From NCBI RefSeq assembly GCF_003073135.1, contig NZ_PGDQ01000001.1:186001-250000 (forward strand): a DNA stretch of 64,000 nt, given 5' to 3'. The notes under the pieces are model-generated. The model had not been told where the DNA came from. It ran no database searches and was given only the letters and a program-made list of their open reading frames with translations. The DNA is from Euzebya rosea. GTDB lineage: Bacteria > Actinomycetota > Nitriliruptoria > Euzebyales > Euzebyaceae. Position numbers and translations under genes: made by a program. This document shows positions 2,681-25,796 of this stretch, piece by piece. Every line of letters begins with the position of its first letter. Position 1 is the stretch's first letter.

Positions 2681-4978
2681 TCAGGCGGCGTGGATGGCGC
2701 GGCGCCGCAGGAGGCGGGTCAGCCGGGCGATGAGGACCTCGAGGTCCACCGGCTTGGCCAGCCAGTCGTCGGCACCGGCGCGGAGCCCCTCCATCTCGGT
2801 CTCCGGGTCGTCGTAGCCGGTGATGATCATGATCGGCAGGTCGCGGACCGTGGGACGGGCACGGATCTCGCGGGTGACCGCGTAGCCGTCGAGGTCGGGC
2901 AGGCCCTTGTCGATCACCGCCGCGTCGAAGCGGTTGGCGTGGACCGCGGCCAGGGCGGCCTCGCCGCAGTCGGCCTCGACCACCTCGAAGTCGCCGGCGA
3001 GCATCGCCTGCAGGGCGCCTCGGACGCTCGGGTCGTCGTCGACGACGAGGATCCGCGGCAGGGTCGAGGGATCACCTTCGCCGTCGACGGCCACCGGGCC
3101 GGTGACCATGCCGGTGGCCGTTCCGCACGACGGGCAGGCCAGCCAGGCCGGGTCGAGCGCACGCTCGCACTCCGCGCACTGGTTGGGTCGCAGGTCCGCG
3201 GTGCACCACGGGCAGGTGCGGAAGTCGACCTCCACCTGCTGCGCGCAGACCGGGCAGTGGTTGGCCGCGTGTTCGGTGCGCGGGGTGACGCGCAGGACCT
3301 CGTCCAGGGTCGTCATGCCCTGACCGGCCTTGTGGATGGCGTCCTCGCGAAGGCCGCGAAGCCCGCCGGCCCGGGCGGCCTGGGCGATCGCGTCGGTGCT
3401 GGCGTTGTCGGCGATCAGCTCCCGGACGGGACCGTCGACGGTCAGGATCTCGAACACCCCGGCGCGTCCGCGGTACCCGGAGTGCATGCAGGCGTTGCAG
3501 CCCGCGCCCTCGACGAAGCGGGCGTCCGGCGGAAGGGACAGGCGCTGGCGGTGCCGGTCGTTGGGCGGCACCTCGCGGGTGCAGTCGGGACACACGGTCC
3601 GGACCAGCCGCTGCGCCATCACCATCGTCAGGGCCGAGGCGATCAGGTAGCCGGGCATCCCCAGCTCCGCCAAGCGCACGACGGCGCTCGGGGCGTCGTT
3701 GGTGTGCAGCGTCGACAGCACGAGGTGACCGGTCAGCGACGCGTGCAGTGCGAGCTCCGCCGTTTCGGGGTCGCGGATCTCTCCGACCATGACGATGTCG
3801 GGGTCCTGGCGCAGCATCGTGCGCAGCGCCCGGTTGAGGGTGTAGCCGGCCCGCTCGTTGACCTGGGACTGCACGACGCCCTCGAGCTCGTACTCGACGG
3901 GATCCTCGACGGTGATGAGCTTGCGCTCCTCCGTCGCGAGGTGCTGCAGGAAGGTGTAGAGGGTCGAGGTCTTGCCGGACCCCGTCGGGCCGGTGACGAG
4001 GACGAGGCCCTGGGGGCGCTCGACGGCGGAGAGGACCTGGGCGGCCTGCGCGGAGGACATGCCGATGTCCTCGGGGGTCAGGCGGGCGTTGTCGCGCCGG
4101 AGCAGGCGGATGACGACGGACTCGCCGAACATCGTCGGGAGCGTCGACAGGCGAAGGTCGACGGCATCCTCGGGCCGGTCGCTGCCGCGGAAGTGGGCGC
4201 GGCCGTCCTGCGGCTTGCGCTTCTCGGCGATGTCGAGGCCGGCGATGAGCTTGATGCGGGAGATCAAGGGGCCCGAGATCTGGCGCGGCAGGTTCATCGT
4301 CTCGTGCAGCACGCCGTCGATGCGGTTGCGGACGACGATGGAGTCGGGACGCGGCTCGACGTGGATGTCGGAGGCGCCGCCGGTCAGGGCACGGAGGATG
4401 ATCTCGTCGGCCAGCTTGATGATCGGGCCGTCGTTCTCGCTCGTGGCCGTGATCTCGAGCTCTTCAGGTTCCTCCTCCTCCTTGCGGTACGCGGAGAAGA
4501 AGTCGTCCTGCTGGGCCCGGGCCTCGACGCCGTAGGCCTCCTGGACGGTCTGGCGCAGCGTCTTGGTGGGGACGACGACGATGCGCAGCCGGCGGGCGCC
4601 GATGGCCACGCGCACGTCGTCGAGGCCGACGATGTTGGTCGGGTCGACGCAGGCGACCGCCACGACGTCGCCGTCCTCGGCCCACAGGGGCATGACGAGG
4701 TGGCGCTCGGCCAGGCTCCGCGAGATCCGCGAGGCCAGCTCGGCGTCGACGGGAAGGACGTGCTCGTCGCGGTACTCGAGGTCCATCTGCTGGGCCAGGA
4801 CCATGCCGATCTCGTCCTGGGTGCAGAACCCGAGCCGGACCGCAGCCTCGCCGAGGCGTTCGAGTCGACCGTCGATCTCGATACGAGACGACAGCAGCTC
4901 GTCGACCTGCTGCAGCGTGAGGACGCCCTCGTCGACCAGCAGGTCGCCGAGGCGCTTCCTCGTGTTCACTCCGTCCAT
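2681..4978 (-). CDS. GspE/PilB-type secretion/pilus ATPase with zinc ribbons and a C-terminal receiver domain
   Basis: This 765-residue protein combines an N-terminal GspE-N/MshEN domain (to ~residue 150) with a hexameric traffic ATPase: Walker A GPTGSGKTSTLY, Asp box VEDPVEYE, Walker B MVGEIRDPETAE, His box LSTLHTNDAPSA. The family's tetracysteine zinc motif (CPDC...CNAC) is present. Two further CxxC pairs follow (CPVC/CPWC and CAEC/CPSC, a double zinc ribbon). The protein ends in a response-regulator receiver with an acidic DDD cluster, phosphoacceptor Asp in VIDKGLPDLDGY and the conserved Lys in LAKPVD. Such ATPases power type IV pilus or type II secretion assembly at the inner face of the membrane; the receiver suggests control by phosphorylation. 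ATG 4978 is preferred over an in-frame TTG at 4987. It lies 19 bases after its paralogue. Confidence 0.9.
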   Translation of the reverse strand: MDGVNTRKRLGDLLVDEGVLTLQQVDELLSSRIEIDGRLERLGEAAVRLGFCTQDEIGMVLAQQMDLEYRDEHVLPVDAELASRISRSLAERHLVMPLWAEDGDVVAVACVDPTNIVGLDDVRVAIGARRLRIVVVPTKTLRQTVQEAYGVEARAQQDDFFSAYRKEEEEPEELEITATSENDGPIIKLADEIILRALTGGASDIHVEPRPDSIVVRNRIDGVLHETMNLPRQISGPLISRIKLIAGLDIAEKRKPQDGRAHFRGSDRPEDAVDLRLSTLPTMFGESVVIRLLRRDNARLTPEDIGMSSAQAAQVLSAVERPQGLVLVTGPTGSGKTSTLYTFLQHLATEERKLITVEDPVEYELEGVVQSQVNERAGYTLNRALRTMLRQDPDIVMVGEIRDPETAELALHASLTGHLVLSTLHTNDAPSAVVRLAELGMPGYLIASALTMVMAQRLVRTVCPDCTREVPPNDRHRQRLSLPPDARFVEGAGCNACMHSGYRGRAGVFEILTVDGPVRELIADNASTDAIAQAARAGGLRGLREDAIHKAGQGMTTLDEVLRVTPRTEHAANHCPVCAQQVEVDFRTCPWCTADLRPNQCAECERALDPAWLACPSCGTATGMVTGPVAVDGEGDPSTLPRILVVDDDPSVRGALQAMLAGDFEVVEADCGEAALAAVHANRFDAAVIDKGLPDLDGYAVTREIRARPTVRDLPIMIITGYDDPETEMEGLRAGADDWLAKPVDLEVLIARLTRLLRRRAIHAA

Positions 4979-4997
4979 CCGATCCAACCGATCCGGT

Positions 4998-7211
4998 TCA
5001 GTCCACGTGTTCCAGCAGCTCTTCCAGCCGGTTCAACGCGTTCTTCGGGGTAGTCCTGGTGCTGACGGCATCAGTGGCACCTGCCCTGACCGCGTCGAGC
5101 CTTGCATCCTCATCGGCAGGATTCATCACGAACACAGGAGTGTCGACCGTGACCTGTCGACCACGCAGCTCGTGGGTCAGCGCATACCCGTCGACGTCCT
5201 CGAGTTCGGCGGACACGAACACCGCGTCGGCGCGCGTCCTTGCGACGGCGTCGAGGGCGTCCTCACCGGACCCGACCTCGACGACCTCGTAGTCCTTGTC
5301 GCGGAGTGCCCGAGCGACGCCGACGCGGTGTTCCTCGTCGGGATCGGCGACGACCACCCGCTTGGGTTCCTCGCGGACGGGAGCCAGCACGGCAGGCTGC
5401 ACGGGGGCGGGCGCCGGCTGGGCCGGCACCATCGGGGCCCGCGCGGCGAGCGCGGCTGCGGCGACGGCGGCGACGTGCTCGTCGTGCTCCTCCACCGCGT
5501 CGGTCGGGGTGGTCCGCAGGACCTCCTCGAGGGTCGTGATGCCGTCGCGAGCCTTCACGAGGCCGTCCTCGCGAAGCGACACGAGGCCCGCCCGGCGTGC
5601 AGCACGCCGGATCTCGGCTTCCTCGGCCTTGGCCATCATGGCGTTCTTGACGCCCTTGTCGACGGTCAGGATCTCCATGAACGCGATGCGACCGCGATAG
5701 CCGGTGTGGCCGCAGGCGGCACAGCCGTGCCCGGTCACCCAGCCGTCGTAGGCGATGTCCTCGGGGGTCAGCCGCAGCCGGTCGATCTCGCGCTGGGTCG
5801 GGGTGTGTGGGCCGATGCAGCTGGGGCACACACGGCGGCCGAGGCGCTGGGCAACCACCATCGTCAGCGACGAGGCGATGAGGTAGTCGGGGATGCCGAG
5901 GTCGGCGAGGCGGGTCACGGCGCCGGGGGCGTCGTTGGTGTGGAGGGTGGAGAACACCATGTGACCGGTCAGCGAGGCCTGCAGGGCGAGCTCGGCGGTC
6001 TCGAGGTCGCGGATCTCACCGACCATGACGACGTCGGGGTCCTGGCGCAGCACGGTCTTCAGTGCCGAGGAGAACGTGAAGCCGATCCGGGCGTTGACCT
6101 GGGTCTGGTTGACCCCGGGCAGTTCGTACTCGACCGGGTCCTCGATGGTGATGAGGTTGTGCTCGTCGTCGGAGAGGTGGGACAGGAAGGCGTAGAGGGT
6201 CGAGGTCTTTCCGGCACCGGTCGGGCCGGTCAGGAGGCACAGGCCCTGCGGTCGCTCGATGTGGGCCAGGACGTTGGCGTGCTGCTCGGGGGACAGGCCG
6301 ACCTCGTCCAGCTGCAGCTGCTCCGCGCCCTTGCGGAGCAGACGCATGACCATCTTCTCGCCGTACAGCAGCGGAAGGGTCGAGACACGGAGGTCGACCT
6401 CGGAGTCCTTGCTGCGGTAGGTCGACCGACCGTCCTGGGGACGGCGGCGCTCGGCGATGTCCAGGGACGCGATCAGCTTCAGCCGGCTGATGAGCGGACC
6501 GTGGACGTTCTTCGGGATCTGCATGACCTCCTGCAGCACACCGTCGATGCGGTAGCGGACGCGGGAGGAGTTCTTGCCGGGCTCGACGTGGATGTCGCTG
6601 GCGTTGCCGTGCAGGGCGTCGTGGATGATCTGCTCGGCCAGGCGGATGACCGGCGCACGTTCCTCGACGGAGTCGACGATGTCGTCGGCCTCGTCGGCGA
6701 TGGACTCGGAGTCGGTGGAGATCTGGTCGAGCAGCGCGCCGGTGCGGGAGCCGTCGGAGAGGTAGACCCGCTTGAGCGCGTCGCCGATGCGGTCGGGGGA
6801 GGTGACGATCGGCCGGAGGCGGCGGGCACCTGCGGACAGCCGTACGTCGTCCATCGCGACGATGTCGGTCGGGTCGGCGGTCAGCACCACGAGGGTGCCG
6901 TCCTGCTCGGTCCACATCGGCACGATGCCGTGGCGGCGGGCCAGGGACTCGGGAACGGCCTCGCGGGCGCTGGCGTGGGGCTCGGGCAGGGTCGTGCCGG
7001 CGAACTCCAGGCCGAACTGCTTGGCGACGATGCGGGAGACGTCCTGCATCTCGACGAAGCCGAGCCGGGCGATGGTCTCGCCCAACCGCTCGCGCTTGCC
7101 GTCGATGACCATCCGGCTCGCCAGGGCCTCGAGCAGCTCTCCTTGGGAGATCAGCTCTTCGGCGACCAGCCATTCGCCGATCGGCTTCTTGCTTCGTCGT
7201 TCCTGAGTCAT
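4998..7211 (-). CDS. GspE/PilB-type ATPase with a degenerate (pseudo-)receiver C-terminus
   Basis: A 737-residue paralogue of the next gene in the operon. It has the MshEN domain, a full ATPase core (Walker A GPTGAGKTSTLY, Walker B MVGEIRDLETAE, His box STLHTNDAPGA) and the zinc tetracysteine (CPSC...CAAC). It lacks the extra zinc ribbons and instead has an Ala/Pro-rich linker before a receiver-like tail. In that tail the phosphoacceptor position is Ser (FVSAELEDVDGY) and the conserved Lys is replaced (VSTRTTPKN), so it should not be phosphorylated in the usual way. The ATG at 7211 is chosen over a longer in-frame start at 7265 because the family's N-terminal motif begins just after it. The two ATPases probably act in the same pilus-like or secretion machine, perhaps as a regulated pair. 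Confidence 0.88.
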   Translation of the reverse strand: MTQERRSKKPIGEWLVAEELISQGELLEALASRMVIDGKRERLGETIARLGFVEMQDVSRIVAKQFGLEFAGTTLPEPHASAREAVPESLARRHGIVPMWTEQDGTLVVLTADPTDIVAMDDVRLSAGARRLRPIVTSPDRIGDALKRVYLSDGSRTGALLDQISTDSESIADEADDIVDSVEERAPVIRLAEQIIHDALHGNASDIHVEPGKNSSRVRYRIDGVLQEVMQIPKNVHGPLISRLKLIASLDIAERRRPQDGRSTYRSKDSEVDLRVSTLPLLYGEKMVMRLLRKGAEQLQLDEVGLSPEQHANVLAHIERPQGLCLLTGPTGAGKTSTLYAFLSHLSDDEHNLITIEDPVEYELPGVNQTQVNARIGFTFSSALKTVLRQDPDVVMVGEIRDLETAELALQASLTGHMVFSTLHTNDAPGAVTRLADLGIPDYLIASSLTMVVAQRLGRRVCPSCIGPHTPTQREIDRLRLTPEDIAYDGWVTGHGCAACGHTGYRGRIAFMEILTVDKGVKNAMMAKAEEAEIRRAARRAGLVSLREDGLVKARDGITTLEEVLRTTPTDAVEEHDEHVAAVAAAALAARAPMVPAQPAPAPVQPAVLAPVREEPKRVVVADPDEEHRVGVARALRDKDYEVVEVGSGEDALDAVARTRADAVFVSAELEDVDGYALTHELRGRQVTVDTPVFVMNPADEDARLDAVRAGATDAVSTRTTPKNALNRLEELLEHVD

Positions 7212-7232
7212 GGTTCTTGTCTTCAGTCGGTA

Positions 7233-8006
7233 GTGTTGCCCCCGATCTTGAGCACCTTTCGCCATGCAGTCCTGATTGTTCTCCTGCTCGTGCTGGCCAC
7301 GGGATGCGAGCTGCGCCTGGAAACGCGGGTCGATCTGGACGACGAGGGAGGTGGGCAGCTGCTGTTGACCATCTCACCGGATGCCGAGCTCGTCGAGATG
7401 GCTGGCTCGGCCGGTGTGGACCCGCTGGGTCGCCTGGTCGAGCGTGTCGAGGTCCTCGACGGCTGGGACCTGATGACCGCCGAGGCGGAGGACGGCACCC
7501 TCCTCGAGGTCACCGTCAGCAGCGGCTTCGACGGTCCCGAGGAGTTCGGTGTCCGCTACGAGGAGCTGCGTGGCGCGCTGGACGCCCCCGAGGCGTCGTT
7601 GCTCGGCCCCATGACGCTGTCGCTGGACCCCGAGACCGACGTGGTCAGCCTGAGCGGGAGCGTGCCGTTCCAGCTGACCGAGGTGGCAGCGGCGGATGCC
7701 GGCATGCCACTGGAGGCGCTGGCACCACAGGTCGACGCGGTCGTTCCCTACACGTTCGTGGTCACGACGCCGGTACCGCTGGTCGAGGGATCGACGACGG
7801 TCACGACCCCGGTCGACCCCGAGGACCCCGAGGGCGCGCAGCAGGTCGTGCTGGACCTCTCTCCGGGTCAGGAGCAGGTGGTCGAGGTGGCCTACGTCCG
7901 CCCCGGCTTCGACCTGACCGCCTGGTTGCTGCAGGGCGGCGTTGCCCTCCTGGCGATCCTGGCGATCGCCGGCGGCGTCATGGCCCAGCGGCGTCGCATT
8001 CGCTGA
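7233..8006 (+). CDS. LppM-like lipoprotein with C-terminal membrane anchor
   Basis: The protein (~257 residues) starts with a short signal peptide ending in the lipobox LATGC, so the mature protein should be lipidated on Cys. The following LETRVDLDDEGGGQLLLTIS resembles the LppM/DUF3153 domain of mycobacterial envelope lipoproteins. A hydrophobic segment near the end (WLLQGGVALLAILAIAGG) and a basic tail (QRRRIR) indicate a second anchor, an arrangement seen in that family. No ATG exists before the signal peptide; GTG 7233 or TTG 7248 must be used. The gap to the divergent ATPase start at 7211 is only about 21 bases. A small CCCC-GAAA-GGGG hairpin lies about 28 bases after the stop. Family assignment is moderate. 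Confidence 0.68.
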   Translation: MLPPILSTFRHAVLIVLLLVLATGCELRLETRVDLDDEGGGQLLLTISPDAELVEMAGSAGVDPLGRLVERVEVLDGWDLMTAEAEDGTLLEVTVSSGFDGPEEFGVRYEELRGALDAPEASLLGPMTLSLDPETDVVSLSGSVPFQLTEVAAADAGMPLEALAPQVDAVVPYTFVVTTPVPLVEGSTTVTTPVDPEDPEGAQQVVLDLSPGQEQVVEVAYVRPGFDLTAWLLQGGVALLAILAIAGGVMAQRRRIR

Positions 8007-8040: not shown

Positions 8041-8285
8041 AGGGGTGGGTCGCGGCTGCGTGGCCGGTGCCTTCATGTCGGTAGCGGTGGCAGCGGCGCG
8101 GAGGCGGTGAACGAGTGCCTTGGGTCGCACCTTGCAGCGACAGGCGGGGTGCCGATCGGGATCGGGCCGACCGTGGGTACAGCGCTCGGGGTGTCAGCCT
8201 CGGCCGCGCAGTGCCCCGATGGTCCTGCTGGGACTCCGTCGCGTGCCGTCCGCCTCGTCAGGCGGCGAGGGGTGGGTCGCGGCTG
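8041..8285. repeat. 18-bp direct repeat duplicating the 3' end of the HNH gene
   Basis: An 18-base sequence (AGGGGTGGGTCGCGGCTG) occurs at 8041-8058 and again at 8268-8285. The second copy encodes the last residues (SRDPP) of the interrupted DUF222/HNH gene; read on the minus strand the first copy would encode the same SRDPP. The stretch between the lipoprotein stop and the HNH stop (8007-8257) otherwise shows no gene. The first copy may be the remnant of a second, eroded HNH gene end. Confidence 0.5.
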
Positions 8286-9212
8286 ATCTCCACGCCGCCC
8301 TCGGTGGTCCAGATGCGTTGTCCGGGTGGGCCGTGGAGCTGGTGGTTGCGTCTGGTCTTGTCCCGATGATGGGCGGCGCAGAGCCAGGCGAGGTCGTCCA
8401 GTCGTGTGGTGCGGGTGATGGCCCATCCGGTGACGTGGTCGATCTCAAGGAGGTGGTCGGCGGTGCAGCCGGGTACCTCGCATTGGTAGCCGCGGGCGTG
8501 GAGTGCGGTGCGTTGTTTGGCGGTGACCTGTCGGCCGAGGTGGGCGACGGTGACGTCGGTGGCGTTGGTGATGACGTAGGCGATGTGGGCATCCAGCATC
8601 TGCTCGCGGACTGCGGAGAGGGCGACGGGGCCGATGCCGGCGATCTCGCAGATCTCGCCGTCGGCGAGTTCGCCGCGGACGAGGGCGGAGCCGTCGACGC
8701 GGATGATCACCTTGGTCTGTCTGCCGGAGGGTCGATGTCGCTGCGACGGCGGATGGCCACCCGGTCCGGCGACTGGATCGCTCGTGGTCGGATCCGAGCC
8801 CTGGTGCCTGTCCGGGTCGTCGCTGGGCGGGTCGTTGTCGGTCCGGTCGGTCCGGCCGGACCCGTCGTGGATCGTGTCCGGGTCCTGGACATGGGCGCCG
8901 GGGTCCGGCCCGCCGGCCTGGCGGCCGGGTGGGCTGTCCCTGGTGGTGCGGTTCCGATCCGTGCCGCCTGGAGCATCTCGGCCCGGCTCGACGCCGCCAG
9001 TGATGCTGCTGCTCGCGTCGGTGCTGCTGGGGGTGTGTGAGTCGGGGCCATCGTCCTCGGTGGTCCCCAGGAGCATCGACTGGGCCGGCGTGCTGGTGCC
9101 CTTCTGGGAGTCCGTGGCGGTCGGGGGAGTCGTGGTGCCGGTCGGGTCATGGGTGGGGTGGTCGAGCAGGTTGAGGAGGGCATCGAAGCGGTAGCAGGCA
9201 TCGTCCTCCCGA
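8258..9212 (-). pseudogene. DUF222/HNH endonuclease, C-terminal part (interrupted by IS256-type element)
   Basis: This is the 3' portion of a gene whose 5' portion lies beyond the insertion element at 10647-11334. It encodes a long Pro/Thr/Asp-rich linker and then a C-terminal HNH nuclease domain: HARGYQCEVPGC (zinc/first Cys pair), LEIDHVTGWA and LAWLCAAHHRDKT. The usual central Asn of HNH appears as Asp (RLDDLAWL). Proteins of this DUF222-HNH family are multicopy in actinobacteria and often associated with mobile DNA. Deleting the element and one target duplication (1442 bp) joins the two parts in one frame, giving AGRREDDACYRFDALL across the junction. The gene is therefore broken only by the insertion, with no other lesion visible. 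Confidence 0.9.
9205..9212. repeat. Left copy of the 8-bp target-site duplication
   Basis: CCTCCCGA lies immediately left of the insertion element and is repeated exactly at 10647-10654 on its right. An 8-bp duplication is typical of IS256-family transposition. Its perfection argues for a recent insertion. Confidence 0.92.
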
Positions 9213-10646
9213 GAGGGTGTCAGATCCTCTGTGTAAGTGCGTGGTCCTGATACGACGCCGTTGAGTCGGCGTTGGGAGGTACCACGATGAACGAGAAGAT
9301 CGACAGTGACAGGCCGGCGGTGGCGCCGGTGGAACCGTCCTCGGTGACGGAGCGGTTGGTTGATGGTGCGGGGGCGATTGACCCCGGGTTGATCGATCGG
9401 CTGCTGCGGCAGTCCCAGGGCCGTGATCTGCTTGGGGAGGGCGGGCTGGTCCAGCAGTTCACCAAGCAGCTGCTGGAGACTGCGCTGGACACCGAGCTGA
9501 CTGACCACCTGGGCTATGACCGCGGCGATCCCGTGGGCAGGGGCAGCGGCAACTCCCGCAACGGCACGACCCCCAAGCGGGTCCACACCGACGTGGGCAC
9601 CGTGGACATCGAGGTGCCCCGCGACCGCAACGGCACGTTCGAACCGGCGATCGTGGCCAAGGGCCAGCGACGACTCGAGGGGTTCAACGACCGGATCATT
9701 GCCCTGTACGGCCGCGGCATGACCGTCCGCGACATCCAGGCCCACCTCGCGGAGATCTATGACGTTGAGGTGAGCCCTGACCTGATCTCCAAGGTCACTG
9801 CCGCGGTCCTGGATGACGCCAAGGCCTGGCAGACCCGACCCTTGGAGCCGGTGTATGCCGCGATCTACCTCGACGCCATCAGCTGCAAGGTGCGCGACAA
9901 CGGGGTGGTGGCCCGCAAGTCGGCCTACATCGCCATCGGCGTGGACCGAGACGGCTACCGCGACATCCTCGGGGTGTGGATCGGACAGGCCGAGGGCGCG
10001 AAGTTCTGGCTCAAGATCGTCAACGAGCTGGCCAACCGTGGCGTGGCCGACGTGCTGTTCGTCTGCGTCGACGGGCTCAAGGGGCTGCCGGAGGCCATCG
10101 AGTCGGTGTGGCCACAGGCGATCGTGCAGACCTGTGTGGTCCACCTGGTGCGCGCGTCCTCCCGCTACGCCAACTGGAAGGAACGCAAGACCATCAGCTC
10201 GATGATGGCCGAGATCTACCGGGCCCCCAACGAGGCCGCCGCGGCCGACGCGCTGGACCGACTCGACCAGCGCTACGGCACCCGGTTCCCCGCCATGATC
10301 AAGGTGTGGCGAGATGCGTGGGACCGGTTCGTCCCGATGCTGGACTACCCGCCGGAGATCCGCCGGGTGCTCTACACCACCAACATGGTGGAGAGCGTCA
10401 ACTTCCAGCTCCGCAAGATCACCCGCAACCGCGGGCACTTCCCCCACGACGACGCCCTGTTCAAGCTCCTCTATCTCGGGGTGCGCAACATCACCGGCAA
10501 GTGGCGCAGCAAGGGCAAGCCCGGACCCGGCACCCACGGATGGAAGGAGGCCATCAACCAATTCGAACTGTTCTTCCCCGGCCGACTCGACCAGGGCTGA
10601 ACCCCATGACCACACCACGCACCTACACAGAAACGCGGACACCCCC
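9213..10646 (+). mobile_element. IS256-family insertion sequence (1434 bp)
   Basis: The element starts GAGGGTGTC and ends GACACCCCC, so the outermost nine bases of its imperfect terminal inverted repeats match at eight of nine positions. A second matching block (TCTGTGTA, then GTGCGTGG) lies 14-31 bases inside each end. It is flanked by a perfect 8-bp duplication (CCTCCCGA). It contains one transposase gene occupying almost the whole element and is inserted in a DUF222/HNH gene in antisense orientation to it. Structure, size and duplication length all fit IS256. Confidence 0.95.
9287..10600 (+). CDS. IS256-family (mutator-type) transposase
   Basis: A 437-residue DDE transposase. The catalytic acids are visible in the family's usual contexts: first Asp in AIYLDAISCK, second in FVCVDGLKGLPEA, Glu in TTNMVESVNFQLRK. 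The domain order is typical: N-terminal QFTKQLLETALDTELTDHLG, central RNase H-like core with the VWPQAIVQTCVVHLVR stretch, and C-terminal KWRSKGKPGPGTHGWKEAINQF. The ATG at 9287 has a GGGAGG ribosome binding site eight bases upstream; a TTG at 9272 is in frame but less likely. Length and motifs indicate an intact, potentially active enzyme. Base composition is similar to that of the host region. Confidence 0.96.
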   Translation: MNEKIDSDRPAVAPVEPSSVTERLVDGAGAIDPGLIDRLLRQSQGRDLLGEGGLVQQFTKQLLETALDTELTDHLGYDRGDPVGRGSGNSRNGTTPKRVHTDVGTVDIEVPRDRNGTFEPAIVAKGQRRLEGFNDRIIALYGRGMTVRDIQAHLAEIYDVEVSPDLISKVTAAVLDDAKAWQTRPLEPVYAAIYLDAISCKVRDNGVVARKSAYIAIGVDRDGYRDILGVWIGQAEGAKFWLKIVNELANRGVADVLFVCVDGLKGLPEAIESVWPQAIVQTCVVHLVRASSRYANWKERKTISSMMAEIYRAPNEAAAADALDRLDQRYGTRFPAMIKVWRDAWDRFVPMLDYPPEIRRVLYTTNMVESVNFQLRKITRNRGHFPHDDALFKLLYLGVRNITGKWRSKGKPGPGTHGWKEAINQFELFFPGRLDQG

Positions 10647-10654
10647 CCTCCCGA
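10647..10654. repeat. Right copy of the 8-bp target-site duplication
   Basis: CCTCCCGA directly follows the right end of the insertion element and matches the left copy at 9205-9212. Confidence 0.92.
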
Positions 10655-11334
10655 CGGCCGGCGGCGTGGGCGGCACGAAACACCGCATCGTGCTCGCCTC
10701 GTAGTGCCGCCTCGATCCGGGCACCCAGGTCACCGGGGGCCTGCAGGAACGCCTTCCACTCGCCATCGGTCTCCGTCCACGACCGAAACGCCCGCCGCGC
10801 CAGATGCCTGCGGCGGGTCGCTTCCCGGTCCGGATCAGCAGCGGTGCGGATGTCACGCGCCTTCTTCCGCAGCTCCGGCAACGTCTGCGAGGCCGCATCC
10901 ACGATCAGCTCACCCGCCCTCTCGGGCGCATCGGCCACGGTTTCGGACACCACCACCGCCTGGTCGGTGGAGAGGGTCCCGTCGGTCACGGCCCGGTCCA
11001 CCTCGGGCTGGTCGACCAGCTGTGCGGAGGTGCGCAGCATCTTCCTGGCCGCGGCAGGGGTGGTGCCGGTGGCGGTGGCGATCAACGTCGCCGCGTCCCT
11101 GGCCCCTGCTGTGTGGTGGGCGTCGGCCTCGGTGGTCCGTCGGGCAGCCCTGGTGAGCATCCCGTCGACGATCCGGCCGGCACGACCCAGGTCGGCGACC
11201 AGCCCGGCGATGTCGGGGTCGGGGATGGCATCGGGGTCGAACCGGGTGGCAAGGGCATGCAGGTGGGTGACCAGCTCGGTCACCTCACCCGCCTCCACCA
11301 CCCCTGACCCCATACCCCGAACCCCGCCTCTCAC
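10647..11334 (-). pseudogene. DUF222/HNH endonuclease, N-terminal part (interrupted by IS256-type element)
   Basis: The 5' portion of the split gene encodes about 229 residues of an alpha-helical DUF222 domain (DAATLIATATGTTPAAARKM, TLSTDQAVVVSETVADAPERA, DPDREATRRRHLARRAF). The start is GTG 11334 or, seven codons later, ATG 11313; neither has a strong ribosome binding site. Translation now runs into the insertion element and stops at 10471 after about 59 foreign residues, so a 287-residue DUF222-only protein could still be made. The reading frame is otherwise clean. The nuclease domain is separated from it by the 1434-bp element. Confidence 0.9.
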
Positions 11335-14232: not shown

Positions 14233-16416
14233 TCAGTGGTCCTCGCGTGCCGCCGGGGCGTGCGCTCGCACCAGCTCCAGCGCCTCCTGGGCGTTGAGTG
14301 GCACCCCGAGGTGAAAGCACTGCGCGTGGGTGCACCCGAGCTCGGCAAGGGCGGCCAGATGGCTGTCGTCGCGAGCCCCCTCCGCGACGACACGGGCGGC
14401 CCTCCACGCCCCGACCCTGGTGATGGCCCTGATCAGCTCACGTCCTGCGGGGCCGTCGGTCAGCCGGTGGACCACCTCGCGGTCGATCTTGATCTCGGCC
14501 AAGGGGAGCTCGGCCAGCCTGAGGAAGGACGAGTACCCGGTGCCGAAGTCGTCAAGGGACAGCTGGACCCCACGGTCTGCAAGCGCGAGCAGGGCGTTCC
14601 ACGCGGGGGTGCCCGGTGTCAGCACGCCGTCCTCGGTCACCTCCACGACCAGCCGTTCGGGTGGGAGCCCGTGGGTCTCCAGCGCCGCCTCGACCGTGGC
14701 CACGACGCCGCGGTCCAGCCAGCGAGGCGACAGGTTGATGGCGAAGTCGAGGGTGGCGTCGACCTCGAGGCGACGTGCCGCCTGCCGGCAGGCCTCGTCG
14801 ATGACCCAGTCGTTGATGGTGTGCATCAGCAGCGACTGGTCGGCCACGTCGAGGAACTGGGACGGCAGCCAGACCGTTCCGCCGGTCCGTCTCCAGCGCA
14901 GGAGCGCCTCGAAGCCGCCGAGCCGACGGTCCGGCAGCGACCAGGACGGCTGGTGGAACAGCTCCAGCTGACCCGCGTGCAGCCCGACCCGCAGCTGCGT
15001 GGCCAGCTCCTGGCGGCGGATCGCCTCGGTTCGGGTCGCGCGGTCGAAGCGCTGGACCCGCCCTGCCCCGCCTGACTTCGCCACGTACATGGCGGCGTCG
15101 GCGTCGCGCAGGACATCGGCCGGGTCAGCACCACGAGCGGCGGACGCAAGGCCGATGCTGGCGCTTGCCGACCCTCCACCCGACGCCTTGCTCAGGGGAC
15201 GTTCGAGCACGGTGCGGACGCGAGCCACGACCTGGTCGGGATCCTCGTCCCGCACCACCACGACGAACTCGTCACCGCCGAACCGGGCCACGAAGTGCGG
15301 AGTCGTGGCGTTCAGCAGCCGGTCGGCGATCTCACGGAGCGCGGAGTCACCGGCGTCGTGGCCGAGGCTGTCGTTGATGATCTTGAAGCTGTCGAGGTCA
15401 AGGGCCAGCACGGTCATGGCGCTCGTGGGGAGGTGTTCGGCCAGGAACGCCACGAGGTGGTGACGGTTCGGCAGGTTCGTCACGTCGTCGGTCAGCGCCA
15501 TCTGACGCATGCGGTCGGCCGCGTCCATCCGGCCGAGCAACGCCGAGAGGTGGCCCGCGACCAGCGCAACCCCGCTGCTCGCGACCTCGGGGTCTCCCAG
15601 CACCAGCGCTTCGATCGCCAGCACGTCGCCCTCGACCGGGACCCTGACGATCCGAGCTGCGGTGTCGGCCACCTCGTTGACGGCATCGCCGACGGGCACC
15701 CCTGCCGCCGCGACGACACGTCCCACCTCGTCGTCGGTGACGATCCGTGCCCCGGATGCGAACCCTCCGTTCGCCAGCAGCTCGACCACACGCGTCAGGA
15801 CCGACGGGCGGCCGCTGTTGTCGACGGCGTCGGCCCCCACTCGGAGCAAGCCCTCGACCAGCTGCACCCGGGCGCGGGCCTGTCGCCGGTGCGCACGTTC
15901 GGTGCGCCGCATGAGCTCCGTCTGCACCACCGGTCCGGCGACACGGGCGATCGCCAGCACGTGCCGGGCCGCGCTGTCGTCGGGCCGCTCGTCCGGACCC
16001 GCGTAGTCGACGCTGATGAACCCCACCGCACGTGGGGCGTCGTGGTCGTGCGACACGAGTGCGGCAAGGATCAAGGCGTGGACACCGGTGCGGGCGACCC
16101 ATGGACCGAGGAGACCGGACTCGCCCAGGTCATCGATGATCACGGCTTCGTCGCTGTCGACGGCCCGTCGCACGAGCGGATGGCGGGGGGAGAACGACGT
16201 GTTCTCGAGCAGTGGAAGCAGGTCCTCGGGCACGCCGTGCTGTGCCCACGGCCTGAAGCGACCGTCCTCGAGCACGTAGACCGACGCACGGTCGCAGCCC
16301 ACCATGACCGTTGCGAGGCGGCACAGCTCCTCGAGTCGACGGGTGATGGAATGTCGGCCGGCCAGCACTTCGGCGAGTTCGAGCAGCGCCTCGGTGTCCG
16401 TCGAGGGCTGGGTCAT
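14233..16416 (-). CDS. GAF-GGDEF-EAL protein (cyclic di-GMP synthase/phosphodiesterase)
   Basis: A 727-residue cytoplasmic signalling protein. Residues ~20-170 are a GAF-type sensor, followed by a second, less clear sensory stretch. The GGDEF domain (residues ~310-470) has the active-site motif RFGGDEFVVVV and the metal-binding LDLDSFKIINDSLGHDAGD. The EAL domain (from ~485) keeps GFEALLRWR, INLSPRWL, EVTEDGV, LDDFGTGYSS and IKIDR; the late EGVE motif reads EGAR and the QG pair reads QC, so phosphodiesterase activity may be altered. It could make or degrade c-di-GMP, linking environment to the PilZ protein and flagellar genes in the same window. It starts at ATG 16416. Confidence 0.93.
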   Translation of the reverse strand: MTQPSTDTEALLELAEVLAGRHSITRRLEELCRLATVMVGCDRASVYVLEDGRFRPWAQHGVPEDLLPLLENTSFSPRHPLVRRAVDSDEAVIIDDLGESGLLGPWVARTGVHALILAALVSHDHDAPRAVGFISVDYAGPDERPDDSAARHVLAIARVAGPVVQTELMRRTERAHRRQARARVQLVEGLLRVGADAVDNSGRPSVLTRVVELLANGGFASGARIVTDDEVGRVVAAAGVPVGDAVNEVADTAARIVRVPVEGDVLAIEALVLGDPEVASSGVALVAGHLSALLGRMDAADRMRQMALTDDVTNLPNRHHLVAFLAEHLPTSAMTVLALDLDSFKIINDSLGHDAGDSALREIADRLLNATTPHFVARFGGDEFVVVVRDEDPDQVVARVRTVLERPLSKASGGGSASASIGLASAARGADPADVLRDADAAMYVAKSGGAGRVQRFDRATRTEAIRRQELATQLRVGLHAGQLELFHQPSWSLPDRRLGGFEALLRWRRTGGTVWLPSQFLDVADQSLLMHTINDWVIDEACRQAARRLEVDATLDFAINLSPRWLDRGVVATVEAALETHGLPPERLVVEVTEDGVLTPGTPAWNALLALADRGVQLSLDDFGTGYSSFLRLAELPLAEIKIDREVVHRLTDGPAGRELIRAITRVGAWRAARVVAEGARDDSHLAALAELGCTHAQCFHLGVPLNAQEALELVRAHAPAAREDH

Positions 16417-16954: not shown

Positions 16955-19900
16955 CTACGCCGAGGTCGTCTCCTCGACGAGGATGGCGCAGGACCAGCCG
17001 AAGAGCGGGTCGGCGACCCAGGTTCCGGCGTCGGTCGCGGCCGAACCAGTGGCCTGTCGCTGCGCGAAGGTGGCGCCCGGCAACACCGGGGCGAGCACCT
17101 CCTCGTCACCGGCGAGTGCGGCCATGGCATCGTCGTTGAGCTGCAGGACCTCCACACCGCGACGGCTGTCGGCGACGATCACGTAGTCGCCGTGGAAGTA
17201 CGGCGCGTAGCTGCTTCCGCCGGTGGGGCGGGAGTAGGCGATCTGGCGAGGGTTCGCCGGGTCGGACACGTCCAGGAAGCGGGTGCCCTGGGCGTACCAG
17301 GAGTAGGCCACGATGCCGTCCTGCACGTCGAAGTAGTGGGCGCTGCAGAACAGGTCGGGGGACTGGCCCTCGACCATCGTCGGCGACCAGATCCCCACCG
17401 TCTCCAGGCGGTACGGGTCATCGGGAGTGGACACGAAGCCGGCCCCGGACTCGCTGCCCGACAGGCTCGCGATGACGAACCGACCGTCGGTCTCGCACCG
17501 GGTGGAGAACGCCTCTTCGGTGTTGTAGATCAGCTCGCCCTCGGCGAAGCCGCTGGCGTCGAGGTCCGCGGCCTGGTCGGCCGTGTCGCCCACGGCGCGG
17601 AAGGAGTTGTGCACGAGGCGGCTGGGTGCGGCCTCGTCGGCGAGCGTGCCGCCGGCGTAGGGGATCGGGTCGACGGGGGTGGCCACGCGCTCCTCGCCCG
17701 TCACCGGGTCGGTGTGGGTGCCCATGGTGTGGTAGCCGTAGATGCCACCGCGGGAGGAGACCCAGGCGATGCCCTCGGCGTCGACCTGGACGTCGTGGGC
17801 GTAGTCGGTCACGCCGTCGTTCTGGTTGGTGACCAGCGGCTGGGGATACGTGAACGGCTTGGCGGGATCGGTGATGTCGGTGACGAAGATCGGGCGGCCG
17901 GCCCAGTCCTCGGGCTGGTGCTCACCGGTTGCCGGACCGCCGGACCACAGGTAGTCACACGGGCCGGAGTCGGACAGGACACACGTGGCGGTGTGGCCGG
18001 TCGGCAGCTCGTGGAAGGCCAGCTCGACGATGTCGGTTGGGTCGGACACGTCGAAGATGTACACGCCGGCCACGCCGTCGTCGGTCGAACCGCCGTAGGC
18101 CCGTGGGTCGCGGGAGAGGAAGACCAGGTCGCGGCTGTCGTCGACGTCCATGTCCTCGTTCTGCCAGAAGCCCGGCATGTCCGCCGACCCGAGTGCGACG
18201 GGAGCCGCGGGGTCGCCGATGTCGAACAGCTGCAGGCCGTACCGTCCGCTCGTCGCCATGACCTCCACGCCGTCGACTTCGAGGAAGTTGATCGATGTCG
18301 AGCCGCTGGTGCCGGGCACGGTGACGATGTGGTCGATACCGCTCGTGGTCGACTCGTTGACGTCGTACGGCGGTGCCTCCGTGGTCTCGAACTCGCTGTA
18401 GTCGCTGCCGATGGCCGCGAAGCCCTCGGCCGCCGCGCCGTTGATGGCCAGCGTCCAGCTGTCGATGTCGGCGTCGACGTCACGGGCGGTCAGCCCGTCG
18501 GCGGGCAGGCAGCCTTCCGACCCGTCGACGGCGAAGGTCGTCGTGCCATCGCTGATGCGGAGGCGGGTGACGGAGTCGGCGGGCGAGCCGGCGAGGCACA
18601 CCTCGTCGTCGATGACGTTGACGTGGGCCGCCATGTTGTCGAGGGAGGCGGCGTACCGGGCGGCGAAGCGCACCGCGGAGGTGTCGCAGGTCTCCTCACC
18701 GTCGGGGCCGGCAGCGCAGACGTTGACCACGACCAGGCCCGGGGTGTTGGAGGTGAAGGTCGCCGCAGCGGTGCCATCGGCGGCCGCCGGGACGGTCTCC
18801 ATCCCCATGGTGGGGACGGCCATGCCGATGCTGTTGGTGTCGGGGGTGACGGTGAACGTCGCCTCGACGCCGTCGAGGTCGACCGACGCGAAGCTGGCGT
18901 CACGGTCGATCAGGTCCGCGGTGACGGTGAAGGCCTTGCCGACGGGCACGACGGCCACGTCCGGGAACGCGGTGACGGCGAGGTCGCAGACATCACCGGT
19001 CGCTGCCGCGTCCAGCACGGACTGGGCGTCGGCGTCGCTGACGGCGTTCTCGCCACCCGCGACGTAGAGGGTCGAGACGGTGCAGCCCAGGGCCGAGGCC
19101 AGGGCGTCGGACGCGATGTCGCCGCCGGCCAGCAGGACCGGCGCAGACAGGTCACCCGCCAGCGGCGCGGCGGCGAGGGCGTCGGGGAAGTCATCGCCGG
19201 TGGCAAGGACGGCAGCGGTCGGACGCCAGTCGAGGGCGGTCATGGCCCACGTTGCGACCTCGGCCGCGGTGGCCTGACGGCCGTCGCCGGCCAGCCGGGT
19301 GACGTCGACGTCCAGGGCCTCGAGGTCAGCGACGGTGTTTTCGCTGATCACGGCAGTGCCGCCCAGGACGACGAGGCGCTCGATGGCCAGCTCGTCCACG
19401 AGGGCCGAGGTCTGCTCGGGCACGCCGTCGGCGTCGACGAGCAGGAGGGGCAGGCCTGCGCCTGCCGCGACCGCACCACCGACGAGGGCGTCGGCGAACC
19501 CGCCGGCGCTGGCGACCAAGGCGGTGCGCTGGCCGCCCACCTGGCCGGGGATGGTCGGGTCGGCGGCGACGGCGGCACGGACGATGGCCGCAGCGGTCTC
19601 GTGGCGGCCGTCACCGGCAAGGCGGTCGACGTCCAGGCCCAGGTCGGCCAGCGCCGTCTCGACGGCTTCGCCGAGCGCAGCGGTCCCGCCGAGCAGCGTG
19701 GCCGAGGATGCACCCAAGTCAGCGATCGCATCGACGGTTGCCTCGGGCAGGCCGTCGGTGGCGGCCAGCAGGATCGGCGCGTCCAGCGCACCGGCCAGCA
19801 CGGACCCCACGAGGGCGTCCGGGAAGGAGTCCTGGCGGGCGATCAGCACGTGGTCGGCCACGTCACGCTGGCCGGCGATGGCGGCCGCGGTGGCAGCACG

Positions 19901-20026
19901 GCCGTCACCGGCGAGGCGGACGAGGGCGGACTCGGGCGGGCTCTCGTCCTGTGCGAGCGATGGGGCGACGGCGGTCAGGGATGCGACCAGCAGCAGCACC
20001 ATCACGGGGATGGTTCGACGGATCAT
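16955..20026 (-). CDS. Secreted cell-wall-binding-repeat protein with LVIVD-type propeller
   Basis: A 1023-residue exported protein: signal peptide MIRRTIPVMVLLLVASLTAV ending around SLAQ. Then come three cell-wall-binding type 2 (PF04122-like) repeats in residues ~33-310, each with the RLAGDGR(x)TA pattern, a PDALVGS-like stretch and LLGGTA/VLGGTAV. A ~200-residue region with paired Cys follows. Residues ~520-1000 are LVIVD/choice-of-anchor beta-propeller repeats (FLEVDGVEVMATSGRYGLQL, FDVSDPTDIVEL, FLDVSDPANPRQIAYSR). It is probably non-covalently attached to the cell wall. ATG 20026 has AAGGA nine bases upstream. Two spaced dyads lie 37-68 bases upstream of the start. Confidence 0.9.
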   Translation of the reverse strand: MIRRTIPVMVLLLVASLTAVAPSLAQDESPPESALVRLAGDGRAATAAAIAGQRDVADHVLIARQDSFPDALVGSVLAGALDAPILLAATDGLPEATVDAIADLGASSATLLGGTAALGEAVETALADLGLDVDRLAGDGRHETAAAIVRAAVAADPTIPGQVGGQRTALVASAGGFADALVGGAVAAGAGLPLLLVDADGVPEQTSALVDELAIERLVVLGGTAVISENTVADLEALDVDVTRLAGDGRQATAAEVATWAMTALDWRPTAAVLATGDDFPDALAAAPLAGDLSAPVLLAGGDIASDALASALGCTVSTLYVAGGENAVSDADAQSVLDAAATGDVCDLAVTAFPDVAVVPVGKAFTVTADLIDRDASFASVDLDGVEATFTVTPDTNSIGMAVPTMGMETVPAAADGTAAATFTSNTPGLVVVNVCAAGPDGEETCDTSAVRFAARYAASLDNMAAHVNVIDDEVCLAGSPADSVTRLRISDGTTTFAVDGSEGCLPADGLTARDVDADIDSWTLAINGAAAEGFAAIGSDYSEFETTEAPPYDVNESTTSGIDHIVTVPGTSGSTSINFLEVDGVEVMATSGRYGLQLFDIGDPAAPVALGSADMPGFWQNEDMDVDDSRDLVFLSRDPRAYGGSTDDGVAGVYIFDVSDPTDIVELAFHELPTGHTATCVLSDSGPCDYLWSGGPATGEHQPEDWAGRPIFVTDITDPAKPFTYPQPLVTNQNDGVTDYAHDVQVDAEGIAWVSSRGGIYGYHTMGTHTDPVTGEERVATPVDPIPYAGGTLADEAAPSRLVHNSFRAVGDTADQAADLDASGFAEGELIYNTEEAFSTRCETDGRFVIASLSGSESGAGFVSTPDDPYRLETVGIWSPTMVEGQSPDLFCSAHYFDVQDGIVAYSWYAQGTRFLDVSDPANPRQIAYSRPTGGSSYAPYFHGDYVIVADSRRGVEVLQLNDDAMAALAGDEEVLAPVLPGATFAQRQATGSAATDAGTWVADPLFGWSCAILVEETTSA

Positions 20027-23013: not shown

Positions 23014-24525
23014 TCAGGTCCCGTCGAAGAGGTTGGCCACCTCGTCCAGGGCGTTGGTCACCACGTGTCGCGGGGTGCCGGCAAGGATGCCGGTGATGTC
23101 GCGGAACGGCGCACCGACGTGCATGCCCGTCCCGTCGATCCTGAACTCCCGGATGCGCTTGTCGTGGGTGGAACCCCGTAGCTTCAGCACGGTGAGCCCG
23201 CGACGGATCTCCCCGCCGGTCTCGACGTACCGCAGCAGGATGATCATGTCGGTCAGCGTCGAGATGTGGGCCTCGGTGGTGGACTCGCCGCCCAGCAACG
23301 ATCGGGCCGTGGCGGTCAGCAACGCCGCGATCTGACGATGCTTGATGAACGAGGTCAGCCCGATGAGGAACTCGCGGAAGCTGCGTTCGGGGGCGATGCG
23401 CTCCAGCGCTGACAGGCTGTCGACCGCCATGCGGGTGGGGTTGAACTCCTCCACGGCCTGCTTGATCGCCACGAGGTGGTCCTCCAGGGACATGACCTCC
23501 GGGTACGCGCACTCCACCCGCAGCGACCCCTCCGCCTCCATGCTGGCGAAGTCGCGGCCCCAGCCCGCGGCGTTGCGGTACAGCTGGGCCCTGCTCTCCT
23601 CGAAGGCCAGGATCAACGATCGTTCGCCCCGCGAGGCGCCGCCGTCGATGAACTCGGTCACGAGGAGGGTCTTGCCCGTTCCCGTGGCCCCCGAGACGAG
23701 GGTGACGGAGTCGCGGAACATCCCCCCGCTGCACATCTCGTCGAGCTCCTCCAGCCCCGACGTGATCCGTTCGGTGGTCGACCCGGCGGTCAGGTCCGTC
23801 CCGGCGAGGGTGATGACGACGATCCCCTGCCCCGGGAGGATGGTGAACGGGAACTCACCGGTCAGGTGATCGATGCCCCGCATCTTCAGGACCTCGATGG
23901 TGCGGCGGCGCGACTCCTCCTGCAGCACGTTGCGGAGCACGAGGACGTTGTCGCAGACGAACTCCTCGACGCCGAATCGGGCGATCTCGCCGTACTCCTG
24001 CGTGCGTTCGCTGGTCAGGACGGCCGTGACCCCCAACGACCTGAGGCCGTCGGCCACCCGCGCCAGCTCCCGCCGAACGCCGTGTGGTTCGGCGAAGCGG
24101 GTGAACACGGCCCCGACGGAGTCGATCGCCACCCGCTTCGCACCGGTGGTCCGGACCGCGTGCTCGATGCGCGCGAGCAACGCCACGAAGTCGTAGCGTC
24201 CGATGACCTCCTCGTCCTCCGAGGGGTCATAGGAGACATCGATGAACGCCCACTTCCCGGCCTCCTCGAGGGCGGCGATGTCGAAGCCGAGCGCTGCGGC
24301 GTTCATGCGGATCAGGTGCGGGCGTTCCTCGAACGTCACGAAGACCGCCGGCTCGTCGTACTTGCGGACGCCGTCGATGAGGAACTGCAGGGCGAACACG
24401 GTCTTGCCGCTGCCCGCCGATCCGCTGACGAGGGTCGTACGGCCGGCAGGCATGCCACCGTGGAGGATGTGGTCCAGGCCCGAGTTGCCGGTCGGCACGC
24501 GGTCGATGCTGGGAATGGGCGTCAC
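23014..24525 (-). CDS. kaiC: KaiC-family clock ATPase/autokinase (two RecA-like domains)
   Basis: A 503-residue protein with the full CI-CII architecture of KaiC. Walker A motifs are GSAGSGKT (residues 35-42) and GATGTGKT (279-286). The catalytic Glu pairs are present in FEERPHLIRMN (CI) and FEESRAQLYRNA (CII), the latter matching the E318/E319 region of cyanobacterial KaiC. The CII phosphorylation segment reads TTEAHISTLTD, so the equivalents of T426, S431 and T432 are T417, S422 and T423. RGSTHDKRIREFRI matches the family's C-terminal core. KaiC proteins hydrolyse ATP and autophosphorylate, in cyanobacteria rhythmically with KaiA and KaiB. GTG 24525 overlaps the kaiB stop (GTGA). The C-terminal A-loop tail differs from cyanobacteria (ends ANLFDGT). 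Confidence 0.93.
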   Translation of the reverse strand: MTPIPSIDRVPTGNSGLDHILHGGMPAGRTTLVSGSAGSGKTVFALQFLIDGVRKYDEPAVFVTFEERPHLIRMNAAALGFDIAALEEAGKWAFIDVSYDPSEDEEVIGRYDFVALLARIEHAVRTTGAKRVAIDSVGAVFTRFAEPHGVRRELARVADGLRSLGVTAVLTSERTQEYGEIARFGVEEFVCDNVLVLRNVLQEESRRRTIEVLKMRGIDHLTGEFPFTILPGQGIVVITLAGTDLTAGSTTERITSGLEELDEMCSGGMFRDSVTLVSGATGTGKTLLVTEFIDGGASRGERSLILAFEESRAQLYRNAAGWGRDFASMEAEGSLRVECAYPEVMSLEDHLVAIKQAVEEFNPTRMAVDSLSALERIAPERSFREFLIGLTSFIKHRQIAALLTATARSLLGGESTTEAHISTLTDMIILLRYVETGGEIRRGLTVLKLRGSTHDKRIREFRIDGTGMHVGAPFRDITGILAGTPRHVVTNALDEVANLFDGT

Positions 24526-24821
24526 AGGTTGGAGATCTCCTCGTCGCTCGGGACCCCGAGGTCAAGTGCGGCGGCAAGCCGCTGGATGTCGCTCAGGTCG
24601 CCGATGGCGCGTCGAATGGGGGCGGGGGTGAGCTTCACGACGGTCGGCGTCGCGAAGATCCGGGCGTCTTCGGCCAGGTCGGGGCGATCGACGACGTCGA
24701 TCACCTCCAGCTCCCAGTCGTCGCCCAGCAGCTGGTTGCACAGCCGTCGGAGGTTGGATGCGGCGCGGATCGCCCGAGGACTCTCCCCGCCGATGTAGAG
24801 GCGTAGCCGGACGGCCTTCAC
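24522..24821 (-). CDS. kaiB: KaiB-family protein
   Basis: A 99-residue thioredoxin-like KaiB. Family features: RLRLYIGGESPRAIRAASNL at the N-terminus, the central LEVIDVVDRPDLAE, FATPTVVKLTPAPIRRAIGD (the ATPT and P-rich region of the fold-switching segment) and the closing LSDIQRLAAALDL. In cyanobacteria KaiB binds the KaiC CI ring, captures KaiA and recruits output kinases. GTG 24821 overlaps the stop of the upstream gene and its own stop overlaps the kaiC start, both by GTGA, so the three proteins should be made together. The short acidic tail DEEISNL also ends KaiB-like proteins elsewhere. Confidence 0.93.
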   Translation of the reverse strand: MKAVRLRLYIGGESPRAIRAASNLRRLCNQLLGDDWELEVIDVVDRPDLAEDARIFATPTVVKLTPAPIRRAIGDLSDIQRLAAALDLGVPSDEEISNL

Positions 24822-25741
24822 GAGGGCCTGCCTTCGTCGGGTGGCGGTGGCTGTTCGAGGGGCGTGAGCAAGCCGACGGCGCGCCCGACGGCCTGTGCAC
24901 GGTAGTAGGACGCAAGGTGGCCGAGCACCTGGACCAAGAGGATCTGGCCGGCGTCCATCAGGGCCCGGACCCGACCCCGTCCCACGCCGTCGGTGAGGTC
25001 CCGGAGGGCGGCAACGTGCACGTCGACGACGTCGCGTGGGGTGACCCGGAGGAGGGCGACGTCGCCGGCCAGCGCCTTCGCACGGCTGGCCACGTTGTAG
25101 TCGACCTCGAGTCCGCGTTCCTCCACGTACTGCGCCACGAGCTCGCCGTACTGCGTTCGTGCCGTCTCGAAGACGTCCGGAAAGGTCTCCGACAGCGACG
25201 ATCGGCCGGCCGATCGGGCGGCAACGCTCGTGCCGCCGGCGCCGAGGGACTCGAGGACGGCGATCTGCTCCTCGGCAGTCCGCCGTCGGGCGAGCACGTC
25301 GATGATCGACAGGAAGTACCGGTGGCGTGCCAGCGCGTGCCGGATGCTCCGCAGCAGCGTGTCGCGGTCGTAGTCGCCCTTGCGGAGGAACTCGTTGGCC
25401 CCCGCGGCCAGCGCCATCTCGCCGAACTCCTCGTCCACGGTGCCGGTGACCACGATCACCGGCACGGCCGGGGCCGTCTGGACGATCCGCAGCAAGGTGT
25501 CCAGGCCTTGGGAGTCGGGGAGCTCCAGGTCGAGCAGCACGAGGTCCACGTCGTCCACGTGCTCCAGGGCGGCCTCGAGGCTGGCGGCCGCGACGACCTC
25601 GGTGCTGAACCCGTCGGCCAACGGTCGAGCGCCCACCTCGATGGACAGGTAGTCGCTGAGGTGGGGGTCGTCCTCGACGACGAGGACCCGGACCGTTCGG
25701 TCGGGTCCTCGGTCCGATGACTGCGGATTGCTGGGCACCAC
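24818..25741 (-). CDS. Receiver-domain protein with KaiA-like C-terminal helical bundle (KaiA3-like candidate)
   Basis: A 307-residue protein. Residues ~16-140 are a canonical receiver: acidic pair in VVEDD (24-25), phosphoacceptor Asp71 in LLDLELPD, Thr99 region VVTGT, Lys121 in LRKGD. Residues ~188-290 form a helical region resembling the KaiA C-terminal (or RsbU N-terminal) bundle. The patterns QYGELVAQY, VTPRDVVDVHVAALRDL and LVQVLGHLASYYR parallel KaiA's YRTIVLEY, ISVSQVLEIHVELMD and LIDVIAHLCEMYR. KaiA is itself a pseudo-receiver plus such a bundle, and it activates KaiC autophosphorylation. Here the receiver keeps its phosphorylation residues. It is the first gene of the operon, coupled to kaiB. 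GTG 25741 is the likely start. The KaiA role is inference from architecture, motif pattern and gene order. Confidence 0.75.
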   Translation of the reverse strand: MVPSNPQSSDRGPDRTVRVLVVEDDPHLSDYLSIEVGARPLADGFSTEVVAAASLEAALEHVDDVDLVLLDLELPDSQGLDTLLRIVQTAPAVPVIVVTGTVDEEFGEMALAAGANEFLRKGDYDRDTLLRSIRHALARHRYFLSIIDVLARRRTAEEQIAVLESLGAGGTSVAARSAGRSSLSETFPDVFETARTQYGELVAQYVEERGLEVDYNVASRAKALAGDVALLRVTPRDVVDVHVAALRDLTDGVGRGRVRALMDAGQILLVQVLGHLASYYRAQAVGRAVGLLTPLEQPPPPDEGRPS

Positions 25742-25796
25742 GATGAGGATGACCCGTCGTGCGCGGGCCCGCCATCGTCCGATCTGATCAGTTTCG

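Follow-up and report, generated by a model that had tools for sequence, protein, structure and literature searches.

In the stretch of DNA analysed here (64,000 nucleotides, henceforth the window), which is part of the 5.5 Mb genome of a Euzebya species, two tandem minus-strand genes at 4998-7211 and 2681-4987 encode PilB/GspE-type ATPases, which we refer to as P2 (upstream) and P1 (downstream). We found that P1 ends in a canonical receiver domain and that P2 ends in a pseudo-receiver whose sequence is as strongly constrained as that of its intact neighbour. Our preferred reading, held tentatively and with slightly less than even confidence, is that P1 and P2 are accessory, signal-regulated T4P extension ATPases, encoded in an operon outside the pil cluster, whose receivers are coupled to one another.

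Both open reading frames lie where the initial annotation had placed them. The upstream gene (MshEN-T2SSE-linker-pseudo-receiver) starts at ATG 7211 and encodes 737 aa. A longer start at 7265, from which the P2 residue numbers given below are counted, was unsupported, as the Euzebya pacifica frame opens just before the methionine of ATG 7211. The start of the downstream gene (MshEN-T2SSE-DZR-receiver) lies among TTG 4987, ATG 4978 and GTG 4969, a choice that sets the gap between the two same-strand genes to a value within 10-30 nt, and their co-transcription is likely. The locus is conserved in relatives, in which an Mrp-type gene lies downstream and a divergent gene of the LppM type lies upstream. 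In the window, the former is the start of an Mrp/NUBPL-type Fe-S carrier gene on the minus strand (1-660, end approximate; domains read on the E. pacifica orthologue) that runs out of the window, and the LppM position is taken by a predicted lipoprotein gene on the plus strand (7217-8006, start not fixed); Pfam reported LppM in the copy of one relative (genome G014) and no LppM match in the window's copy. At the motor locus we found no pilus genes besides the motors and no type II secretion genes, and we identified no histidine kinase adjoining the pair. Elsewhere in the window, a Mutator/IS256-type element with a transposase gene at 9272-10600 and 31-nt inverted repeats at 9215-9245 and 10614-10644 interrupts a minus-strand open reading frame (8258-11334) that in E. 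pacifica is a single uninterrupted frame matching both halves. Further along are a gene for a protein of 1023 aa that carries three cell wall binding repeats (CWB2; 16955-20026) and a kai-like pair in an actinobacterium (23014-25775). One gene of this pair encodes a KaiC protein that scores above the KaiC cut-off, and the other, overlapping it by 4 nt, encodes a protein of 417 aa whose C-terminal domain is KaiB.

The description of the pair in the initial annotation, tandem GspE/PilB ATPases with C-terminal receivers, was borne out by Pfam, which matched MshEN, T2SSE and Response_reg in both proteins. Specifically, P1 was matched by MshEN (residues 69-156; positions 4520-4783), T2SSE (184-566; 3290-4438), a double zinc ribbon (DZR, 578-622; 3122-3256) and Response_reg (646-756, E 1.8e-25), and P2 by MshEN (85-172; 6750-7013), T2SSE (201-584; 5514-6665) and, more weakly, Response_reg (637-742, E 9.7e-13), all on the minus strand. 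The zinc ribbon, which is conserved across the motor family and had been missed by the initial annotation (as had the pre-existing single-gene family described below), is replaced in P2 by an Ala/Pro-rich, fast-evolving linker (5364-5507). Walker A, Asp box, Walker B (Glu) and His box were read as intact in both proteins, and the two ATPase cores have the same fold and 52% identity. The best NCBIfam match with full-length coverage was in both cases PilB (TIGR02538; 530.6 and 577.1 bits); as neither reaches the equivalog cut-off of 675.65 bits, we class both as PilB-like and not as PilB equivalogs. The scores for GspE (TIGR02533) were nearly equal (529.5 and 563.3 bits) and likewise below the cut-off (630.25). 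A full-length model of P1 (pTM 0.44) did not resolve the position of the receiver or the arrangement of the domains.

MshEN domains that act as c-di-GMP receptors carry two 24-residue motifs (RLG...G...L...L..Q) separated by a 5-residue spacer (PMC5013675). Here the spacer has 8 residues and the motifs depart from the consensus: in P1, motif I lacks its terminal Gln, and in P2 it lacks the Arg as well. In P2, the motif pair sits just before the Pfam MshEN match (about 7017-7184, minus strand) and joins a degenerate motif I (PIG...R) to an intact motif II (RLG...Q). Since motif I is without residues reported in PMC5013675 as needed for binding, c-di-GMP is a doubtful input to P1 and P2, and its candidacy as the main input is weakened; weak binding by these MshEN domains may nonetheless occur. 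Some 7 kb upstream of the pair, a gene at 14233-16416 encodes a GAF-GGDEF-EAL protein, possibly a c-di-GMP enzyme.

In the P1 receiver (2684-3058, minus strand), all five active-site residues are canonical, namely D650/D651, the phospho-Asp D693 (2909-2911), T723 and K745 (2753-2755), and thus the acidic cluster, Asp and Lys that the initial annotation had read in the downstream protein are in place. The Ser that it had seen at the phosphoacceptor position upstream, and the loss of the Lys, were also found in the corresponding domain of P2 (5001-5363, minus strand; D641/P642, S685, N715, T736), where four of the five canonical residues are lost: the phospho-Asp is replaced by S685 (codon 5211-5213), the Lys by T736 (codon 5058-5060), the Thr by N715 and the second acidic residue by P642. 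Given that these residues are lost while the receiver fold and the Pfam match are kept, the P2 domain is by its sequence a pseudo-receiver without Asp, as defined by the absence of any of the five active-site residues (PMC12632262). Structure prediction indicates that the receiver fold is retained: AlphaFold2 produced a full alternating strand-helix fold (pLDDT 87.7), and Foldseek matched this model to response regulators (E 2e-10). Comparing the window genome with E. pacifica, we obtained dN/dS values of 0.029 for the pseudo-receiver, 0.024 for the P1 receiver and 0.032 for both ATPase domains, against 0.21 and 0.33 for the linkers, which indicates that the pseudo-receiver is under strong purifying selection and as constrained as the intact receiver of P1. 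A decaying pseudogene domain is excluded by the value of 0.029. Neither is the pseudo-receiver a recent copy of the P1 receiver, to which it is 37% identical; its nearest match, at 46%, is the family receiver of another relative (genome G010). As it is closer to family receivers than to those of Nitrospirae (23-26%), it most likely descends from the motor family's own receiver.

We surveyed 66 genomes of the class Nitriliruptoria and found the motor family in 25 of them. Domain scans of these carriers found a receiver in 9, only the zinc ribbon in 13 and neither domain in 3; the receiver, being absent from most family members, is dispensable for the basic job of the motor. Across the order, the conserved form of the locus is one gene, which encodes MshEN, ATPase and zinc ribbon and may or may not add a receiver. 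The paired fusion, for which the initial annotation had suggested a survey of relatives, recurs in E. pacifica and nowhere else in the class, the tandem being confined to two of the 66 genomes, both Euzebya. All motor-borne receivers readable to the end, those from outside the class included, are canonical with the sole exception of P2. Receiver fusion had also been called uncommon, which holds only in part: receiver-tailed members are present in 9 of 66 genomes of the class and reach further classes and phyla, with the MshEN-T2SSE-zinc ribbon-receiver architecture found in additional families of actinobacteria and among Nitrospirae (and zinc-ribbon-only forms in Deltaproteobacteria). Associations of MshEN with receivers have been reported in general (PMC5013675).

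Variable presence of the receivers, which had been named as a result that would speak against a regulatory pair, was found in part, both in the family as a whole and among three P2 orthologues (genomes G002, G003 and G004) that end without a receiver. The pseudo-receiver is thus present in both cases where P2 has a canonical-receiver partner and absent in all three where P2 is alone. This co-occurrence is suggestive of P1 as the partner, although it represents one lineage and maybe one evolutionary event. A possible receiver remnant in G002 (7 of 1000 shuffles reach its score) is likewise suggestive only, and G003 gave no signal. In the family tree, P2 falls in the resident clade with 100/100 support, and P1, which has a long branch, is placed with moderate support among proteins of the Egibacteraceae type. 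Together with the 52% identity, these different positions exclude a recent tandem duplication inside Euzebya; P1 may stem from an ancient duplication with losses or from a lateral gain, which the moderate tree support does not separate.

Under our preferred reading, the motor ancestral to the whole order would have been one orphan protein (MshEN-ATPase-zinc ribbon-receiver) that worked as a homohexamer and shared its PilC platform with the housekeeping PilB. Within a single Euzebya lineage, an Egibacteraceae-type motor with a canonical receiver (P1) would have come to lie behind the resident P2, which would have lost its zinc ribbon and, in its receiver, the phosphotransfer chemistry. P1 would be switched by phosphorylation of its receiver Asp by a histidine kinase encoded elsewhere, and the pseudo-receiver of P2 would be a module that binds a partner protein with no need for phosphorylation; dimerisation of unphosphorylated pseudo-receivers is common (PMC12632262). 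The most economical partner for it would be the P1 receiver, given that the two motors share an operon and that the pseudo-receiver is kept only in genomes with P1, and contact between the two would link the phosphorylation state of P1 to the activity or placement of P2. Interacting homohexameric rings seem more likely than mixed hexamers, because both motors live alone in relatives and because PilT and PilU, the best studied motor pair, form separate homohexamer rings (PMC6821130). The hetero-regulated motor put forward in the initial annotation is plausible as far as regulation goes, with the combination of an intact and a pseudo-receiver, the selection and the fold in its favour, whereas its mixed hexamer is not required. 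A more specific version, which we consider rather doubtful, joins the motor-borne pseudo-receiver and the neighbour's receiver in a heteromeric phospho-switch, through which a two-component signal received by one ring would gate the other ring at the T4P platform they share.

It is also quite possible, if somewhat less probable than the coupled arrangement, that P1 and P2 are two independent accessory T4P extension motors with no direct coupling, P1 being phospho-regulated and P2 constitutive or differently regulated, while the pseudo-receiver binds an unrelated partner or targets P2 to the cell pole. Independence would fit the occurrence of either motor type (P1-like or P2-like) alone in relatives, the low identity (37%) of the two receivers and the precedent of FimX, whose Asp-less receiver affects localisation (PMC11656802). 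The tight operon spacing and the restriction of the pseudo-receiver to genomes with P1 argue against it, albeit weakly, as they come from two species.

The pilus role itself, common to both of these readings, is backed by the content of the genome. We located the full pil cluster on contig C5, away from the motors, in the order pilB-pilT-pilC-pilins-pilM-pilN-pilO; it contains a housekeeping PilB and the one double-T2SSF PilC of the genome, and the remaining T2SSF proteins are single-domain and Tad-like (the Tad and pilMNO names derive from sequence start, position and size, with no family scan behind them). Within the order, the orphan motor occurs in 10 near-complete genomes, every one of which has PilC (hypergeometric 0.0015, for genomes that are related); three family members in incomplete MAGs have no PilC match, and the PilC-negative calls in G016, G017 and G025 may reflect assembly breaks. 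The pil cluster of G004 (96% complete; contig C2, L213) reads aroE-pilT-pilC-pilins and has no pilB, and the T2SSE proteins of this genome are one PilT-like protein, one Tad-like protein and the orphan motor, which leaves the latter as the only extension candidate. The cluster of another relative (G015; contig C15, L215) has pilT, pilC and pilins and likewise no pilB; its orphan motor, again the sole remaining PilB-type ATPase, is encoded by a gene that reads across a frameshift. Because a relative without pilB in its pil cluster keeps only the orphan motor, the family probably represents a second, regulated T4P extension ATPase, and from this gene content we infer that P1 and P2 operate on the pilus in the window's Euzebya species. 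An E. pacifica plasmid (NZ_CP031166, 571,580 bases) carries at 413671-419488 (L028) a further cluster with a T2SSE ATPase, PilC-type and PilT-type proteins and a prepilin-like protein.

That the orphan motors instead drive some other filament, act in a secretion step or have signalling as their only role is unlikely. A locus without pilus genes and with Mrp-type and LppM-type neighbours would suit such a role, as would the presence of a housekeeping PilB in the pil cluster and the precedent of PilB as a signalling protein in Myxococcus EPS control (PMC5544727), but the genome has no second PilC-type platform, and the only PilB-type protein kept by G004 is an orphan one, beside a pilT-pilC-pilin cluster. 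About as unlikely is the strict form of the earlier model, i.e., mixed P1/P2 hexamers in which composition or phosphorylation determines the speed of the pilus. The similarity and shared fold of the ATPase cores and the likely co-transcription would permit them, but relatives run either protein alone, PilT and PilU make separate homohexamers despite being similar too (PMC6821130), and P1 and P2 belong to different branches of the tree and are no recent duplicates.

If the motor receivers do gate extension directly, no transcription factor or adaptor (such as FimX or PilZ) would stand between two-component signals and the motor. Relatives with one gene, orthologues that lack the receiver and the tandem pair form a natural series for studying the role of receiver and pseudo-receiver. 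A strongly selected pseudo-receiver carried by a motor beside an intact partner also bears on how pseudo-receivers are controlled (PMC12632262). While associations of MshEN with a receiver are known in general (PMC5013675), our search, which was thin on subscription journals, turned up no description of a receiver-fused PilB that has a pseudo-receiver copy as its partner.

Compared with known systems, P1 and P2 resemble PilB (TIGR02538) in combining MshEN and T2SSE with all catalytic boxes, and differ from it in being encoded outside the pil cluster and in their C-terminal additions (a zinc ribbon and receiver in P1, a pseudo-receiver in P2). They differ from GspE (TIGR02533) in scoring below its cut-off, in the lack of type II secretion genes at the locus and in the presence of T4P genes in the genome. 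With the proteins of PMC5013675 they share the association of MshEN with a receiver; a PilB-zinc ribbon-receiver protein accompanied by a pseudo-receiver copy did not turn up in any of the papers searched. Like PilT and PilU (PMC6821130), they are two paralogous motors of which one may depend on the other at a single platform, whereas PilT and PilU are retraction motors without receivers, shown as separate homohexamers. The closest parallel to the pseudo-receiver is the FimX-PilZ-PilB system, in which an Asp-less receiver takes part in the control of a T4P extension ATPase, serving both regulation and localisation of PilB (PMC11656802, PMC8389850); FimX, however, is a separate REC-PAS-GGDEF-EAL protein, whereas the pseudo-receiver of P2 lies within the motor itself.
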